Below are positions 741 through 55,454 of a stretch of 64,000 nucleotides of DNA, in pieces. The notes below the pieces were generated by a model. It was not told the origin of the DNA and made no database searches. It saw nothing but the letters and a program-made list of their open reading frames with translations. Position 1 is the stretch's first letter; every line of letters begins with the position of its first letter. Position numbers and translations under genes: made by a program. The DNA is from Opitutaceae bacterium (GTDB lineage: Bacteria; Verrucomicrobiota; Verrucomicrobiia; Opitutales; Opitutaceae), in assembly GCA_014879845.1 (NCBI GenBank), contig JACSRI010000122.1, forward strand, positions 1 to 64,000, written 5' to 3'.

Positions 741-778
741 GCTCCAGTGGACTGGTCGCCGCCAAGGCTTTGTCTTGG
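741..778 (-). promoter_or_regulatory. Leader motif copy A (upstream of yezD)
   Basis: On the minus strand this reads GCGACCAGTCCACTGGAGC (759 to 741): inner stem CCAG/CTGG with a UCCA loop, a GA/A internal loop and a GC closing pair. A variable hairpin (CCAAG/CTTGG, 762-778) sits just before it. A candidate TTGACA -35 is at 806-811, so the element would be near the 5' end of the yezD mRNA. It is one of nine copies found in this window, all in sense orientation. Confidence 0.6.
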
Positions 779-934: not shown

Positions 935-1014
935 GGTTGCACGATGAGTGCAGCCGTAGCACACGACCGGACCACCGGAGGCGACTCGCTCGGCTGAGAT
1001 TATTCTGCCTCCGG
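935..1014 (+). promoter_or_regulatory. Leader motif copy F with alternative hairpin
   Basis: The core is CGACCGG-ACCA-CCGGAGG (964-981). Relative to copies A and B, both sides of the stem change together (AG/CT to GG/CC), so pairing is kept. A preceding hairpin GGTTGCAC/GTGCAGCC spans 935-955. The 3' arm CCGGAGGC (975-982) is also perfectly complementary to GCCTCCGG at 1007-1014, giving a mutually exclusive second fold. The DUF5069 gene begins about 170 bases later. Confidence 0.6.
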
Positions 1015-6099: not shown

Positions 6100-6553
6100 A
6101 CAGCTCGGTTTGCCGGCTTGCCTTCACCTGCGGTGCGGCGGTGACAATCGCAGCGCCCGCTCGCGGCTGATTTGTTCACCCACTCCGCCCGCGAATTGAT
6201 GGAGATTCAGTGCGTCACCGATCAGCGGGTACACGCCTAATTCCCAGCGCATCGCTTCCTACTACCCTCGGCACAGCTCGGGAGCTTTGTTTCATTTCCC
6301 GCCCAAGATGGTATGGTATCGCTGTTCGGTGAGTGGGTCTTCCCGCTCACACGATCCTGCCGACCAGTCCGCTGGAGGATTTGCGCCAACGAAATCCTCC
6401 AGGGAGTCCTTGCCGGATCGGCACGACAGCCAGGAGCACGGGCAACCTACCGGAGACGATACCGGACGCCCGGCCCGATGCGTCGCGCAGTTCATGCGGA
6501 CATCTCCGGAGCCCACCTCCGAAGTCCATCAGCTCACACGCCATTCGCACCGC
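6100..6553 (+). other. Intergenic leader region before radical SAM gene
   Basis: About 450 bases without a confident gene. It contains a plausible promoter near 6287-6320 (TATGGT box), a stable hairpin and leader copy C. An ORF in this region ends in ATGA exactly over the radical SAM start codon (its stop is 6555-6557), so a short coupled leader peptide is possible, but its sequence is Arg/Ser-rich and unlike a conserved protein. Confidence 0.5.
6329..6402 (+). promoter_or_regulatory. Leader motif copy C with competing 11-bp hairpin
   Basis: Hairpin GTGAGTGGG-TCTT-CCCGCTCAC (6329-6350) is followed by the motif ATCCT-GC-CGACCAG-TCCG-CTGG-AGGAT (6354-6380). The motif's 3' arm CTGGAGGATTT (6372-6382) is also a perfect complement of AAATCCTCCAG (6392-6402). 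The two folds exclude each other, as in a two-state RNA switch. No T run follows, so control of translation or Rho access is more likely than intrinsic termination. Confidence 0.65.
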
Positions 6554-7840
6554 ATGAAGAACCTCAGCATCGTCGACAAGAAGATCCGCATCCAAGGTCA
6601 CGGCATCCGCATCACCCCGGAGCTCAAGACCCGTATCGCCGAGGAAGGCTACTACCCAATCGCCCTCACTTGGCTCTCCGACGACGTCACCGGACCGTTC
6701 TCGTTCACCGGCTACGGCGAGACCTCTCCTTTCGAACTCCACCACGTCGACGGCGGCTACGCCGTTTTCGAAAACGGCGAGTTCTTCACCGAAGCGACGT
6801 TCTACAAGAAACCTCGTTTCTTCGACCGACAGCACACAGCCAAGGGCCTGCAGCGCGCGCCCGACAACACGGTATTCATCGACGAGGGCATGTCCGGCGT
6901 GATCACGCCCTGCGGCACCGCCCTCAACCGCGAGGACAGCGATCTCTTCAAGGTGACCAAGGGCAAGTTTCCGTACGTGACAGTCGCCTGCTACAACGGC
7001 CTGGTCATCTGGCCCGCCTGGGGATGCCTCTACACGAAGAACCACACGCAGTGCAAATTCTGCTGCATCCCGGGTGAATACAATGAGCACAAGCTGCTCC
7101 ACACCGACACCGACTACTGGCACAACCTCGGCGAGACGTTTGCCGCCGCGGTCGAGGAGATCGGGCCCGAGATCGGCCAGGTCTCGCTCACCGTCGACTC
7201 CGGCACGCTGCCGGGCCGCGACAAGGGCGCGCGCGTCTACGTGCAAGTGCTCGACACGATCAAGCAGCGCCTCGGTTACCTGCCCGACCTGCTCTACCGC
7301 CGAGCCGTGATCGAGCCGCCACTCGAGTTCGAGTGGCTGCAGCGCCTGGCCGACGCGGGCTTCACCGATATCCAAATGGATGCCGATGTCTACGACGCCG
7401 CCGAGCGCCGTCACGTCATGCCCAACGCCAAAGGCCACCGCTCGATCGACGACTACATCCGCGCTTTCAGGAAGGCGAAGGAGATCTTCCCGGGCGAAGT
7501 CGCCACACAGCTGATCGCGGGCATCCAGAGCGATGAGAACCTGCTCAAGGGCGTGGAACACTTCGCCAGCGAAGGCGTACCCACACTGGTGACACCGTTC
7601 CTGCCCTTCGGCCACGGACGCGCCTGGCGCGCCACCGGCGAGGTCGACGTGCCGACGCCCGAGCGCATGAAGCGCATCTACGGCCGCTGCGCCGAGATCC
7701 TCACCAAATACAACGTGCCGGCGCCCCAGTTTCGCGGCGGCGTGAGCTCGCTCGCCGAGACGATGGGCCGGCGCATGCGCCGTGTCCGCGCGCTCACGAA
7801 CGAACTCGACCTGCAGCGCGATCTGGTCGCTGCCGTCTAG
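6554..7840 (+). CDS. Radical SAM protein with atypical CX8CX2C cluster motif
   Basis: The 428-aa protein (from MKNLSIVDKK) has the putative SAM-cluster cysteines in WGCLYTKNHTQCKFC (C158, C167, C170): CX8CX2C instead of CX3CX2C, with another Cys at 171. Downstream segments (TVDSGTLPGRDKG, AGFTDIQMDADVYD, ATQLIAGIQSDE, VTPFLPFGHGRAW) fit the strands and SAM-contact loops of a radical SAM TIM barrel. The N-terminal 140 residues form an extra domain. The ORF-track start at 6287 would run through the structured leader, so the ATG at 6554 is preferred. It is first in an operon with activator/dehydratase proteins. I do not recognise a characterised subfamily. Confidence 0.75.
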   Translation: MKNLSIVDKKIRIQGHGIRITPELKTRIAEEGYYPIALTWLSDDVTGPFSFTGYGETSPFELHHVDGGYAVFENGEFFTEATFYKKPRFFDRQHTAKGLQRAPDNTVFIDEGMSGVITPCGTALNREDSDLFKVTKGKFPYVTVACYNGLVIWPAWGCLYTKNHTQCKFCCIPGEYNEHKLLHTDTDYWHNLGETFAAAVEEIGPEIGQVSLTVDSGTLPGRDKGARVYVQVLDTIKQRLGYLPDLLYRRAVIEPPLEFEWLQRLADAGFTDIQMDADVYDAAERRHVMPNAKGHRSIDDYIRAFRKAKEIFPGEVATQLIAGIQSDENLLKGVEHFASEGVPTLVTPFLPFGHGRAWRATGEVDVPTPERMKRIYGRCAEILTKYNVPAPQFRGGVSSLAETMGRRMRRVRALTNELDLQRDLVAAV

Positions 7841-7877: not shown

Positions 7878-9968
7878 ATGTCCACCATGACATGGTCTCT
7901 CTCCTCGATACGTGGCGCCGGAGCGCCCGCGCGCCGCTTTCCGGGCGTGTGGGTCGGACTCGACCTGGGCTCACGCGCCTCCAAGGGTGTCCTGCTTACC
8001 GGCGACACCATCCACACTGCGCTCATCCCCACCGGTCTATACATGCAGGAGACAGCCGACGACCTGCTCGGCCGCCTCCTGCAGGAGTCCTCGCTGCGCC
8101 GCGTGGACGTGAATGGCATTGTCGCAACCGGCTATGGGCGCATCGCGCTGAAGTTCTCCGATGTGCCGTTTCAGGTGGTGACCGAAATCACCTGCCATGC
8201 CATGGGTGCGCACGTGGTGCGGCCCGGAACACGCACGATCATCGACATCGGCGGTCAGGACTCCAAGGCCATCAAGGTCGATCCCGCCACCGGCAGGGTG
8301 CTCGACTTCGTGATGAACGACAAATGCGCCGCCGGTACGGGTCGCTTTCTCGAAAAGGCCGCCGCGCTGCTAGGCATGCAGCTTGACGAACTCGGCCACA
8401 CCGCCCTGCGCTCGAAACAGCCCGCGCAAATCAGCAGCCAGTGCGTGGTTTTCGCCGAATCCGAGATGGTCTCGCTGCGCGCCCGCGGCGAGCACGATGG
8501 CGATGCCGGCACCGCGCCAAACATCGCCGCCGGCGTTCACTACTCCGCCGCCCGCCGCGTGCGCAACCTCCTCGGTCGCGTCGGCGTCGACCCCGAGCTC
8601 GTCTTCACCGGCGGTGTATCCAACAACCCCGGCATGCGTTTCGCGCTGGAGGAATTGATCGGCACGCCCTTCAGCGTGGTGCGTTTCGACCTCATCTTCG
8701 CTGGCGCCCTCGGTGCCGCCGCCCACGCCGCTGCCGCGGCGCCCGCGACGATCCATGGCAGGCGGCAGGCGTCCACGCCGGCCGCCGCGGCCGTGGCCAT
8801 GGTTCAGGCGCGTATCGAAGCCACGGAGACTGCGTTCGCGGCGCGAGCCGACACTGACAAACGCGTCGGCTACCTCTGCGCCTACACGCCGATCGAACTG
8901 GTCGCCGCTTCCGGTGCGCGTCACACACGCCTCTTCAAGGCCGGTTCGCCCGACACTGTCGCGCGTGGCGAACTCTACACGCAGAGCGTGTTCTGCGACT
9001 TCTCGAAAAGCTGCCTTGGCTCCTTCGCCGCGGGCGAGCCCGTCAGCCGCGCGCTCGACCACGTCTACAACTTCCACACCTGCGCCTCGATGAAACGCGT
9101 GACCGAGGTCATCGGCGAGTTTGTGCCCACCACGATGCTCAACCTGCCGAAGCTGCGCGACCAGGCGACATCGCGGCAACTCTTCCGCGGTGAGATCGCC
9201 GGTCTGCGCACCGATCTCGAGCGCCTGACTGGCCAGCCGATCGTCGACGCCGAGATTCGACGCCAGATCGGCCTCTACAACGAAGCCAAATCGCTCCTGC
9301 GCCGCATCTCCGAGCTGCGCAAACGCCAGCACTCACCACTCTCCGGTCGCGACTTTCTCGAGCTCGCGCGCGCCTACTACCATCTCCCCGCCGAGGAGTT
9401 GATCGCGACCTACACGCGCACGTTGCGCGACCTCTCCATCGCCACCGCCGCGGACAATCACCCGGTCCCGCCGCGTCTCATGATCTCCGGTAGCATCATG
9501 GCCGAAGGTGACCGCCGCCTGATCGATCTCATCGAGGACGAACTGGGCGCGCGCGTGGTCGTCGAGGACCACTGTGCCGGACTGAAGCCGTTCTATCACT
9601 CGGTGGCCAACACCCACGACCCGATCCAGGCACTGGCCGATTCCTATCTCGACCAGGCGCCCTGCGCACGGATGAAGCCGATCGAGAGCAGCATCGAATT
9701 CTCCACGAAGCTCGCGCGCGAATACGCCGTCGATGGCGTGCTCTATGTCTATCTGAAGTTCTGCGCCTGCTACGGCGTGAGCAAGGGCGCCTTCCTCGGG
9801 ACCTTCGAGCGCGCCGGCCTCCCTGTGCTCGATATCTCGAGCGACTGCTCCCGGAGCGACCACGGTCAGCTCAAGACCCGCATCGAGGCGTTCCTCGAAC
9901 TTCTACGCAGCCGCACGGCCTGCCCCCCCAACCACTCCTGCCCGCATGCAGCTTCCGACAATACTTGA
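7878..9968 (+). CDS. Fused ASKHA activator and 2-hydroxyacyl-CoA dehydratase-like protein
   Basis: Residues 25-290 of 696 are a BcrAD/BadFG/HgdC-type ATPase: nucleotide motifs GLDLGSRASKG and IIDIGGQDSKAIK, plus the two cysteines that bridge a [4Fe-4S] cluster at the homodimer interface (NDKCAAGTGRF, C150; SSQCVVFAESE, C189). Residues about 330-690 are a HgdB-like dehydratase domain with candidate cluster cysteines in GYLCAYTP, FCDFSKSC, FHTCASMKR, EDHCAGLKP and LKFCACYG. Such activators use ATP to push an electron to very low potential. Activator and component are usually separate proteins, so the fusion is notable. It overlaps the next gene by 23 bases. The substrate is unknown. Confidence 0.85.
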   Translation: MSTMTWSLSSIRGAGAPARRFPGVWVGLDLGSRASKGVLLTGDTIHTALIPTGLYMQETADDLLGRLLQESSLRRVDVNGIVATGYGRIALKFSDVPFQVVTEITCHAMGAHVVRPGTRTIIDIGGQDSKAIKVDPATGRVLDFVMNDKCAAGTGRFLEKAAALLGMQLDELGHTALRSKQPAQISSQCVVFAESEMVSLRARGEHDGDAGTAPNIAAGVHYSAARRVRNLLGRVGVDPELVFTGGVSNNPGMRFALEELIGTPFSVVRFDLIFAGALGAAAHAAAAAPATIHGRRQASTPAAAAVAMVQARIEATETAFAARADTDKRVGYLCAYTPIELVAASGARHTRLFKAGSPDTVARGELYTQSVFCDFSKSCLGSFAAGEPVSRALDHVYNFHTCASMKRVTEVIGEFVPTTMLNLPKLRDQATSRQLFRGEIAGLRTDLERLTGQPIVDAEIRRQIGLYNEAKSLLRRISELRKRQHSPLSGRDFLELARAYYHLPAEELIATYTRTLRDLSIATAADNHPVPPRLMISGSIMAEGDRRLIDLIEDELGARVVVEDHCAGLKPFYHSVANTHDPIQALADSYLDQAPCARMKPIESSIEFSTKLAREYAVDGVLYVYLKFCACYGVSKGAFLGTFERAGLPVLDISSDCSRSDHGQLKTRIEAFLELLRSRTACPPNHSCPHAASDNT

Positions 9969-11172
9969 GTCTCCCGGTCGCGCACCGGCCCACGCGGGCG
10001 CCGCCTCGGTGCGATCACCTGCCCTCGAGCTTCTCGCCCAGCTCGCCGGCGAATACACGCTGCCGCACATCCTGCGTCGCGTCGCCGGAGGCCAGCGTGC
10101 CGTCTGGGGCGGCGGCTCCTGGGAAGCCCCACTGCTCTACGCCGCGGGTGTGCTGCCCGTCGGGATCAACGAACTCTGGCGCGAACAGAGCCGCGAAGCC
10201 GAGGCCGTGGGCGAAAACGAGTTTCAGATTCCCGCCGAGTATTGCTCGATGATCAAGGCGGTGCTCGGCCGCCTACGTCTGATCAAGGACCAACCGATCA
10301 AGCGCATCATCCATTTCGGTGGCGCCTGCGAACCGATCAGCATCGCCCTCGAGCTGACGCGCGGCGACGGCTACGAGTTGTTCTGTATCGAAGGCGTCAC
10401 CGCATTCAAGCAGGACGAGCGACAGCTCGCCGTGATGACACAGCTCCTCGTGGCCGAGCTCGAGCGTCTCGCGCTCTGGCTAACCGGTGCCGCGGTCGAT
10501 GAGGACCGCCTGCGGCACGAGATCGAGCGCAAGAATCGTATCTCAAAAAAGCTCCGGCGCGTGCTGGAGCTGCGTGTGGCCCACCCGCACCACCTCCCGA
10601 GCCTGGCCACGCTGCAACTGCTCGCCGGCGCCGCCCACTACTTCGGCCAACCAGACCGCTATGAGCAGGCCATCGACCGGATCGCGCTGGAGCTCGAGGC
10701 GCTCACTCCGTCCGCGACGCCATCGCGCGCGATTCCCATCGTCTTCGCCGGTGGCGGCGCTGCGGGTTTCGACGTGTTTCGCGCCATCGAATCTTCCGGC
10801 GGCGTGGTACTGGGTTTTGTGACCTTCAACTCGCTCGATCGCACCTATCGCGAGGATGTGCCGCCGCTCGAGTCAATCGCGCGCTACCTGCTCGACTCCC
10901 AGATCGCCGGCGAACTCGGCGAACTCGGCGGTGCGCCCGCCCTGCCCCGGCGCCACCGCATCGAGGAGGCGATCCGCCGCACGGGCGCGCGCGGCATCGT
11001 CGCCTCCGGTGTCACCGGGTGCCCCTACAACAGCATCGTGCAGCAGGTCGAGCGCGAGCATTTCAAGAAACTCGGCATCCCGATGATCGCCCTCGAGACC
11101 ACCGTCCACCGCGAGCCACCGACAGAGGAACAGCTGATCAAGCTCGAGACCTTCGTCGAGATGCTGAGCTGA
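9946..11172 (+). CDS. 2-hydroxyacyl-CoA dehydratase-like subunit (HgdB/double-cubane family)
   Basis: This 408-aa protein belongs to the HgdB/HgdC-activated family, which includes dehydratases, benzoyl-CoA reductase subunits and double-cubane cluster proteins. Candidate ligands are Cys residues in EYCSMIKAVLG, FGGACEP and SGVTGCPYNSIVQQ. Its start lies within the end of the fused activator gene, so the two are likely made in fixed ratio and form a heterodimeric reductase. No CoA ligase or CoA transferase is near, which argues against a normal CoA-ester dehydratase. Reductive cleavage of a sulfur compound is possible from context, but is speculation. Confidence 0.8.
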   Translation: MQLPTILESPGRAPAHAGAASVRSPALELLAQLAGEYTLPHILRRVAGGQRAVWGGGSWEAPLLYAAGVLPVGINELWREQSREAEAVGENEFQIPAEYCSMIKAVLGRLRLIKDQPIKRIIHFGGACEPISIALELTRGDGYELFCIEGVTAFKQDERQLAVMTQLLVAELERLALWLTGAAVDEDRLRHEIERKNRISKKLRRVLELRVAHPHHLPSLATLQLLAGAAHYFGQPDRYEQAIDRIALELEALTPSATPSRAIPIVFAGGGAAGFDVFRAIESSGGVVLGFVTFNSLDRTYREDVPPLESIARYLLDSQIAGELGELGGAPALPRRHRIEEAIRRTGARGIVASGVTGCPYNSIVQQVEREHFKKLGIPMIALETTVHREPPTEEQLIKLETFVEMLS

Positions 11173-17273: not shown

Positions 17274-17646
17274 GTGAGTGTGACGATTGACAGACAATGT
17301 GGAGAGGAACGGCACACCTGCAGCGCACAGCTGCAGGCGAAGGCAGGGACGTCAGCGACATCCCGACGCGACACCAAGGCGTCGACATCGACATCGAAAG
17401 CACGCGTGCGAACGCCCGCGTCCACCGGTCCATCGACCGGGGTGGCGCTCCGCACGTACAAAAAGATGCGACCAAATCATGGAGTGAGCGAGTGGCGCCC
17501 GTGCTCCAGTGGTCTGGTCGCTGAGCAGGACCCTGAGCGGGTCCGGTGTACTGTATTCGACCGTCTGTTATGTAACGGAAGACCTTAGCCCCATTCGAGG
17601 CGCCCGGTCGTTCGCGACCCGACGCCCCGGTGAGACTCGAAATGGC
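17274..17646 (-). other. Intergenic region with leader element, no gene
   Basis: The gap of 373 bases between cysK and the M14-like pair holds leader copy B at 17502-17544 and a weak AT-rich promoter zone around 17545-17580 (TTACAT ... TACAGT on the minus strand). ORFs in it are short or antisense and unlike proteins. Confidence 0.5.
17502..17544 (-). promoter_or_regulatory. Leader motif copy B (upstream of M14-like pair)
   Basis: On the minus strand GGACCC-GCTCA-GGGTCC (17544-17528) is immediately followed by TGCTC-AGCGACCAG-ACCA-CTG-GAGCA (17527-17502). Inner stem CCAG/CTGG, GA/A internal loop and outer GC pair match copy A almost exactly, though the flanking hairpin differs completely in sequence. 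A later CTCCA at about 25 bases can pair with the 3' arm. Confidence 0.6.
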
Positions 17647-27675: not shown

Positions 27676-27699
27676 TGCCTCCAGGAGCCTGGTCGGCAT
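27676..27699 (-). promoter_or_regulatory. Leader motif copy D (upstream of porin)
   Basis: Minus-strand TGCC-GACCAG-GCTC-CTGGA-GGCA: inner CCAG/CTGG stem, GA/A internal loop and an outer TGCC/GGCA stem, all matching the motif. It is 27 bases upstream of the porin start and follows copy G in tandem. Confidence 0.6.
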
Positions 27700-27727: not shown

Positions 27728-27751
27728 GCCTCCGGTAAGCGCCGGTCGGCA
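27728..27751 (-). promoter_or_regulatory. Leader motif copy G (tandem with D)
   Basis: Minus-strand TGCC-GACCGG-CGCTTA-CCGGA-GGC. Stem pairs change to CCGG/CCGG as in copy F and the loop is six bases long. It lies 28 bases before copy D, so the porin mRNA would carry two tandem elements. Confidence 0.5.
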
Positions 27752-27966: not shown

Positions 27967-28583
27967 ATCGTGTAATCCTCAAACAGCTGCTTGATGAGAC
28001 CTTCCACGGGTTGGAGGCGCGGAGGGAACGTAGTGGTCGCCGGCTCGGAGGGGCGATGGCCGGACACCGGTTCGGCGTGGCGCTTGCCCGTGCTGCGCAG
28101 GCGGGGAGGCTTGGGTGGCTCGGAATACGGCAGAGGCAGGCCGCTGCGGCGCATCTTGCGCAGTGTCACCTCGACCACGTCGGCCAGCGTATAACGATCG
28201 AGGATACCTGCGATGGCGTTGCGGACATCCATCATGAGCATGCGCAGGCCGCAGTGATCCTCGTCCGGGCAACTACAAGGCTCGTAGGCCGTCTGGCTGA
28301 CGCAGCCGATCGGGGCGAGAGGTCCCTCGATCGTCCGCACGATCTGGCCGATGAAGATAGTCTTGGCCGGCACCGCGAGCCGGTAGCCGCCGAACTTGCC
28401 GCGCCGGCTCTCGACCCAGTTCGCAGCGCGCAGGTCGAGCATGATCTGCTCGAGAAACTTCACGGGAATCTGCCTGCCGTCAGCGAGCTCCGTGACCTGG
28501 ACCAGATCACGGCCAACCTCCTGCGCGATCCCCAGTTCGATCAGCGCACGGATGGCATACTCACCTTTCTTCGACAGTTTCAT
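27963..28583 (-). CDS. Rrf2-family transcriptional regulator with Cys cluster
   Basis: The 206-aa protein begins MKLSKKGEYAIRALIELG, the winged-helix start of IscR/CymR proteins, with KFLEQIMLDLRAANWVESRRGKFGGYRL as recognition and wing. Cysteines in IGCVSQTAYEPCSCPDEDHCG could hold an Fe-S cluster. A 55-residue Pro/Arg-rich tail extends past the normal family length. It heads the sulfate operon and is likely to regulate it and itself, in the way CymR controls cysteine genes. Confidence 0.9.
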   Translation of the reverse strand: MKLSKKGEYAIRALIELGIAQEVGRDLVQVTELADGRQIPVKFLEQIMLDLRAANWVESRRGKFGGYRLAVPAKTIFIGQIVRTIEGPLAPIGCVSQTAYEPCSCPDEDHCGLRMLMMDVRNAIAGILDRYTLADVVEVTLRKMRRSGLPLPYSEPPKPPRLRSTGKRHAEPVSGHRPSEPATTTFPPRLQPVEGLIKQLFEDYTI

Positions 28584-55175: not shown

Positions 55176-55217
55176 TCCTCCAGGAGACTGGTCGGATGCA
55201 CGGTAGAATCGCCGTGC
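55176..55217 (-). promoter_or_regulatory. Leader motif copy E (upstream of sulfonate-operon porin)
   Basis: On the minus strand hairpin GCACGG-N8-CCGTGC (55217-55198) is followed by TCC-GACCAG-TCTC-CTGG-AGGA (55196-55176). It has the same two-stem layout as copies A, B, C and F. The 3' arm is also a Shine-Dalgarno sequence for the 24-codon ORF. Confidence 0.62.
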
Positions 55218-55251
55218 TCGAACTTACTTCGGCATCTTACCTTACTTACTT

Positions 55252-55257
55252 AGTATA
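55252..55257 (-). promoter_or_regulatory. -10 box of the sulfonate/desulfinase operon promoter
   Basis: TATACT on the minus strand, in an AT-rich stretch followed by four GTAAG repeats (CTAAGTAAGTAAGGTAAG) in the early transcript. No good -35 is seen, which could mean an activator is needed. The mRNA start would be about 335 bases before the porin ATG. Confidence 0.45.
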
Positions 55258-55454
55258 GAAAGAAAAATAGCGACGATTTCCGACTCATGCGCGCGTCTTA
55301 TTGCGCCAAGTAGGCTGGCTACTTTGCGTGAGCACTTTTGATGTCTGTTATATGTTCTCTCACAACGGCTTCCGCGGTCACTAAATCCTAGTGTTCCTGT
55401 GGGGTATGCTTTTGCGGTTTCTTTCGTCGTACGGAGGTCTTTATAGGTGAGTTG

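Follow-up and report, generated by a model that had tools for sequence, protein, structure and literature searches.

A candidate cis-regulatory RNA hairpin in leaders of sulfur-uptake genes of Opitutaceae and its overlap with a downstream hairpin in a subset of leaders

Overlapping hairpins in the leader of a radical SAM/dehydratase-like operon

In the genome of an Opitutaceae bacterium, a 64,000-nt stretch of DNA (the window) carries a leader, here termed copy C, in which one RNA arm appears able to pair in two ways, raising the question of whether this overlap belongs to a two-state regulatory RNA. The preliminary description had proposed that the arm pairs either upstream, within a conserved motif, or downstream through 11 perfect pairs. 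The elements of the leader and the genes behind it are as follows.

6327..6353, + strand: hairpin P1, CGGTGAGTGGG-TCTT-CCCGCTCACACG, immediately 5' of P2 (MFE folding)
6360..6378, + strand: hairpin P2 of copy C, CC[GA]CCAG-TCCG-CTGG[A]GG, 6 bp with a 2x1 internal loop and an NCCN tetraloop (covariation; covariance model R1, 28.8 bits)
6354..6381, + strand: extended state 1 of copy C, ATCCT (6354-6358) with AGGAT (6377-6381 region), outside CCAG/CTGG (MFE of transcripts ending at 6382-6394)
6372..6402, + strand: competing hairpin P3, arms 6372-6382 and 6392-6402 with a 9-nt loop (sequence, shuffles, energy)
6554..7840, + strand: radical SAM protein, first gene after the copy C leader (weak Pfam Radical_SAM match, below cut-off)
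7878..9968, + strand: BadF/BadG-type ATPase fused to a 2-hydroxyglutaryl-CoA dehydratase D-like domain (Pfam PF01869 and PF06050)
9946..11172, + strand: second 2-hydroxyglutaryl-CoA dehydratase D-like protein (Pfam PF06050)

Direct reading of the sequence confirmed the 11 perfect pairs: CTGGAGGATTT (6372-6382) faces AAATCCTCCAG (6392-6402) across the 9-nt loop GCGCCAACG. The whole 64 kb holds just three perfect 11-bp stems whose loop is 3-12 nt long, and when the arm was kept fixed and the downstream bases were shuffled, an equally good stem arose about once in 1000 trials (p=0.001). The upstream alternative is weaker than P3 and corresponds to P2, in which CCAG/CTGG is joined by CC/GG around a GA/A (2x1) internal loop; beside this CC/GG, ATCCT/AGGAT is a second upstream option that can be added to CCAG/CTGG. 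Of the 11 bases in the P3 5' arm, as many as 9 or 10 are common to both states, so that P2 and P3 draw on the same bases, in support of the claim that the two hairpins are mutually exclusive, and both lie within the leader of the operon that they had been said to precede. P1 is stable, separate and compatible with either hairpin. The P1 region, i.e., the 42 nt upstream of P2, folds better than shuffles in copy C (p=0.003), and the same enrichment holds across 30 non-porin leaders (Fisher 1.6e-8). Further downstream, a possible additional hairpin, GGGC-AACCTA-CCGG-AGACGATA-CCGG-AC-GCCC, was seen by eye at 6440-6471.

The radical SAM gene behind copy C is missing from the other 149 family genomes sampled. 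Its sole close relatives found elsewhere (73% and 65% identity; L137 and L138) lie in clusters with genes for a porin, an NMT1-like binding protein, an ABC transporter and a PNPOx-like protein, one of the two clusters adjoining metK; these surroundings, including the metK neighbour, suggest a role in organosulfur uptake. Neither relative has P2 upstream, and an orthologous copy C leader was thus rejected. In genome G107, homologues of the other two proteins each have a leader of their own, with P2 (L106) for the 7878..9968 protein and with P2-P3 (L124) for the 9946..11172 protein. Apart from the Pfam-matched genes of copy C, gene names are based on a reading of translations.

Distribution and covariation of the P2 hairpin

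Self-BLAST and a repeat search of the window detected copies poorly until the core was set as a pattern and then developed into a covariance model. There are four occurrences of the core, (C)GACCAGNCCNCTGGAG, in the organism's own genome, and 16 of the 150 family genomes contain it, in a few cases inside coding sequence. With the covariance model R1, seven matches were obtained in the own genome at E<=1, of which six are inside the 64-kb window. Some R1 matches within coding sequence represent chance; matches were sorted by gene context, and these served as controls. Besides copy C, the following elements were annotated in the window.

741..759, - strand: P2 copy A, leader of yezD (274-582, - strand); 28.3 bits with R1, no P3
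963..981, + strand: P2 copy divergent from copy A, before thioredoxin-like/rhodanese genes; 25.6 bits with R1
975..1014, + strand: P3 of the 963 copy, 975-983 with 1006-1014, CCGGAGGCG/TGCCTCCGG; p=0.007
17503..17521, - strand: P2 copy B, flanked by cysK and an unknown gene; 28.6 bits with R1
27678..27696, - strand: P2 of an Rrf2-yezD-porin operon, with an upstream partner hairpin (block 1) at 27728-27750; 24.7 bits with R1
55177..55195, - strand: P2 in a porin-like gene's leader, about 286 nt before the start codon; 25.2 bits with R1, context

Other members precede genes for a sulfate-binding protein, porins, a TonB receptor, ExbB/ExbD and an NAD/FAD-type protein, and relatives elsewhere also precede Rrf2-yezD-porin operons. 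The gap between yezD (DUF2292) and the porin gene usually contains two such hairpins across the family, the second being P2, and this tandem form, with Rrf2 upstream and a porin downstream, was also found in L150 and L151, which belong to two further families of the same order. The proposed sulfur link fits the genes that carry the motif.

The Rrf2 family of regulators is known for its control of sulfur and iron-sulfur genes. In both Rrf2-yezD-porin operons of the own genome, an Rrf2-family regulator gene lies directly upstream of yezD (window 28170-28577, - strand, and G000:C4:3876-4283), and the gene order is likewise found in L150 and L151. A palindrome of the ACTA-N3-TAGT type was seen by eye upstream of P2 in L013, L023, L106, L111, L118 and L124 and at about 55195-55270 of the window; overlapping the likely promoter of many non-porin leaders, it is a candidate Rrf2 operator.

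Across 45 distinct P2 sequences, 94.4% of pair cells are standard, compared with 79.8% in shuffles, and 40 cells are double-changed, compared with 14.2 in shuffles, a level that none of 500 shuffles matched; slid structures reached 55% pairing at most. Since these copies had partly been selected by pairing score, covariation was retested on copies picked by letters outside the tested pairs, where pair 6-13 was Watson-Crick in 90% (35% in shuffles) and pair 1-17 in 85% (48% in shuffles). A crude letter-only pattern for block 1 gave weak support for covariation. The P2 palindrome varies in matched pairs (CCAG/CTGG, CCCG/CGGG, CCGG/CCGG, CCTG/CAGG, CCCT/AGGG) with its asymmetric flanks kept, and nearly all sequences have an NCCN loop (GNCCNC when taken as a hexaloop); the stem, the GA/A internal loop and the NCCN loop are kept across genera. 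As judged from sequence comparison, P2 is a real RNA structure, an RNA hairpin rather than a DNA palindrome, and the conserved motif of the preliminary description is a repeated, conserved RNA.

None of the Rfam 15 covariance models matched the window above the gathering threshold, and at permissive E-values the window copies and seven relatives gave chance-level matches of unrelated families alone. Among the papers searched, none was relevant to YezD/DUF2292 or to RNA motifs of this bacterial group. The small hairpin at the start of sulfur-uptake gene messages is apparently a new cis-regulatory RNA element, not described before.

Recurrence of the P2/P3 overlap

Leaders were gathered by P2 alone, so that P3 played no part in their selection; in the test of P3, the downstream bases were shuffled and the P2 arm was kept fixed. 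An excess of P3 was found in the 30 non-porin leaders (Fisher p=6e-8; 1.4e-6 without copy C) and in the 25 leaders from other genomes (p=3.6e-6; 1.8e-5 with near-duplicates dropped), these exact values to be read loosely because the 45-base span was picked after the first results. The result agrees across spans of 36, 45 and 60 bases, and a stacking-energy score over 60 bases gave p=4e-4. Control R1 matches judged to be chance or coding gave p=0.20, and porin leaders over the same span p=0.96. Individually, P3 reached p<0.05 in 8 of the 25 leaders from other genomes; it is lacking in about two-thirds of the non-porin leaders and in the porin class, where suggestive GGGA/TCCC pairings were considered but gave a flat shuffle test (p 0.44-1.0). 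Copy B has a short P3-like pairing, TGGAG/CTCCA, that is not significant.

The arms of P3 track the sequence of P2, being CUGGAGGAUUU/AAAUCCUCCAG in copy C, CUGGAGGAG/UUCCUCCAG in L124, CUGGAGC/GCUCCAG in L122 and CUGGAAUCG/CGAUUCCAG in L116; in the 963 copy of the window, whose P2 stem is CCGG and not CCAG, they can also be written CCGGAGGCG/UGCCUCCGG. From the excess together with these matching arm changes, it follows that the P2/P3 overlap recurs in about one-third of the non-porin class. Mutually exclusive hairpins conserved beyond one sequence, a general feature of two-state leader RNAs, are on this comparative evidence present here, and the switch remains a hypothesis, supported for a subset of the P2 family.

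Energetics, proposed mechanism and alternatives

The folding energies of the two states, which the preliminary description had proposed to compare, strongly favour P3: -15.7 to -17.1 kcal/mol for P3 and -5.1 kcal/mol for P2 in copy C, a gap of about 12 kcal/mol. At equilibrium, P3 is formed with a pair probability of 0.999, and the MFE fold shifts from upstream pairing to P3 once the transcript passes 6397-6400. P3, as the far more stable hairpin, is therefore the default, and P2 would need a bound partner or a kinetic delay; a gap of this size makes spontaneous switching unlikely. For the proposed regulatory two-state RNA, the comparative data support a P3 that is commoner than chance in leaders of other genomes; two populated states in copy C are not supported by the computed ensemble, in which P3 prevails almost completely, and P3 itself is restricted to its minority of non-porin members. 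P3 is followed by GGGAGTCC, and since there is no U-run, a role as intrinsic terminator was ruled out.

We propose that copy C acts as the leader RNA of a sulfur-acquisition operon in which P1 would fold first and P2 next. As RNA polymerase moves past about 6397-6400, the computed folds predict that the 3' arm of P2 is pulled into the more stable P3, unless a trans-acting factor reporting sulfur status, most likely an RNA-binding protein recognising the P1-P2 pair, holds P2 and thereby delays or prevents P3. The choice between P2 and P3 may then alter how accessible the GGAGG stretch and the leader downstream of it are and, through this, how the operon is translated or whether its transcription continues. 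In several leaders, a start codon lies at ribosome-site distance from the GGAGG within the shared arm. As a whole, this model seems to us to fall just short of evenly balanced. No candidate for the RNA-binding protein was identified; YezD was considered and set aside, as its model was of low confidence, with no match to a solved fold and no solved relative.

The dominance of P3 at equilibrium in copy C, and the many members that have no P3, would also suit a simpler arrangement in which P2 stays fixed as a hairpin or protein site and a stabilising or insulating P3 forms under all conditions, with no switching. Under such an arrangement, however, P3 would have no need to overlap P2, and in the significant cases the overlapping stretch starts no later than the third base of the P2 3' arm (overlap being a requirement of the test), which makes it rather unlikely. 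It is unlikely, too, that P1-P2 is itself a small metabolite-binding aptamer, i.e., a sulfur-metabolite riboswitch with P3 as its expression platform and no need of a protein. The conserved internal loop and tetraloop, the metabolic gene context and the two similar tandem hairpins of the porin class are consistent with an aptamer, and guanidine-II, the smallest guanidine riboswitch, likewise consists of two small stem loops (PMC5486947). Yet no Rfam match appeared even at permissive E-values, and non-porin leaders conserve P2 alone; because the P1 sequence varies freely in them, little conserved surface remains for an aptamer pocket.

Control of a short upstream ORF through its ribosome site, with GGAGG/GGAAG of the P2 3' arm as the Shine-Dalgarno sequence, would account for an excess of start codons after P2: of 48 porin-class leaders, 23 have ATG, GTG or TTG 4-8 nt behind P2 (3.9 expected), and 6 of 29 other leaders have ATG at that spacing (1.4 expected). 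We consider this improbable, as the encoded peptides show no conservation and no start codon stands at that spacing in half of the leaders, including copy C; a conserved leader peptide was rejected on the same differences between peptides. A start codon inside the P3 loop, found in L124, L118, L134 and L122 but not in copy C, fits such an ORF and suggests translation control. In 17 of the 48 porin-class leaders (e.g., L031, L044, L050), the start codon is exactly 5 nt after P2, and at this offset it often opens a short ORF overlapping the porin start. That the motif is a DNA operator, CCAG-N4-CTGG, with hairpins as by-products, draws on the palindromic nature of the core CCAGTCCACTGG itself, but the matched-pair variation with kept asymmetric flanks is characteristic of RNA pairing rather than of a DNA-protein site, and we find this explanation barely credible.

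Among known systems, our preferred reading, a factor-held P2 competing with P3, is closest to ANTAR antiterminator RNA. ANTAR target leaders have two hairpins, the second of which overlaps an intrinsic terminator, and the hexanucleotide loops of NasR, AmiR and EutV targets carry A as their first base and G as their fourth (PMC3369931). The likeness lies in the tandem small hairpins, where a further hairpin downstream competes with the second, and in their location in nutrient-use operon leaders (PMC3369931). In contrast to these targets, the P2 loop is NCCN rather than an A1/G4 hexaloop, the stem has a GA/A internal loop, and the overlapping P3 has no U-run behind it. A search of the own genome for the ANTAR domain PF03861 gave no match, and control genomes gave none either. 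By analogy, then, the copy C leader would act most like ANTAR-controlled leaders but lacks the loop and terminator features that define them.

Like SAM/SAH riboswitches and other Rfam sulfur-related leaders, the element sits in leaders of sulfur genes, but these families gave not even weak scores on the window copies or the seven relatives. The guanidine-II (mini-ykkC) riboswitch has two hairpins with ACGR loops, where the loops here are NCCN; the element differs from it also in its internal loop, its gene context and the absence of an Rfam match. It resembles guanidine-II solely in the two short stem loops of similar sequence seen in the porin class (PMC5486947). Since the ANTAR loop and terminator features fail and the likeness to guanidine-II is slight, we file the element as a two-state leader RNA outside any named family.

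Tentatively, and with appreciable doubt, we suggest that this 19-nt hairpin, alone or in tandem and in part of its members with a P3 platform, represents an undescribed class of riboswitch or protein-sensed leader RNA for sulfur acquisition in this order. Given the compensating changes in the P2/P3 overlap, short RNAs would suffice for a direct test of mutually exclusive folding. If the suggestion is true, the hairpin would offer a compact RNA control of sulfur scavenging, open to test, in an order of bacteria that has had little study. It would then also mark a regulon, linking uncharacterised genes (YezD, the radical SAM/dehydratase-like set and TonB systems) to sulfur nutrition.
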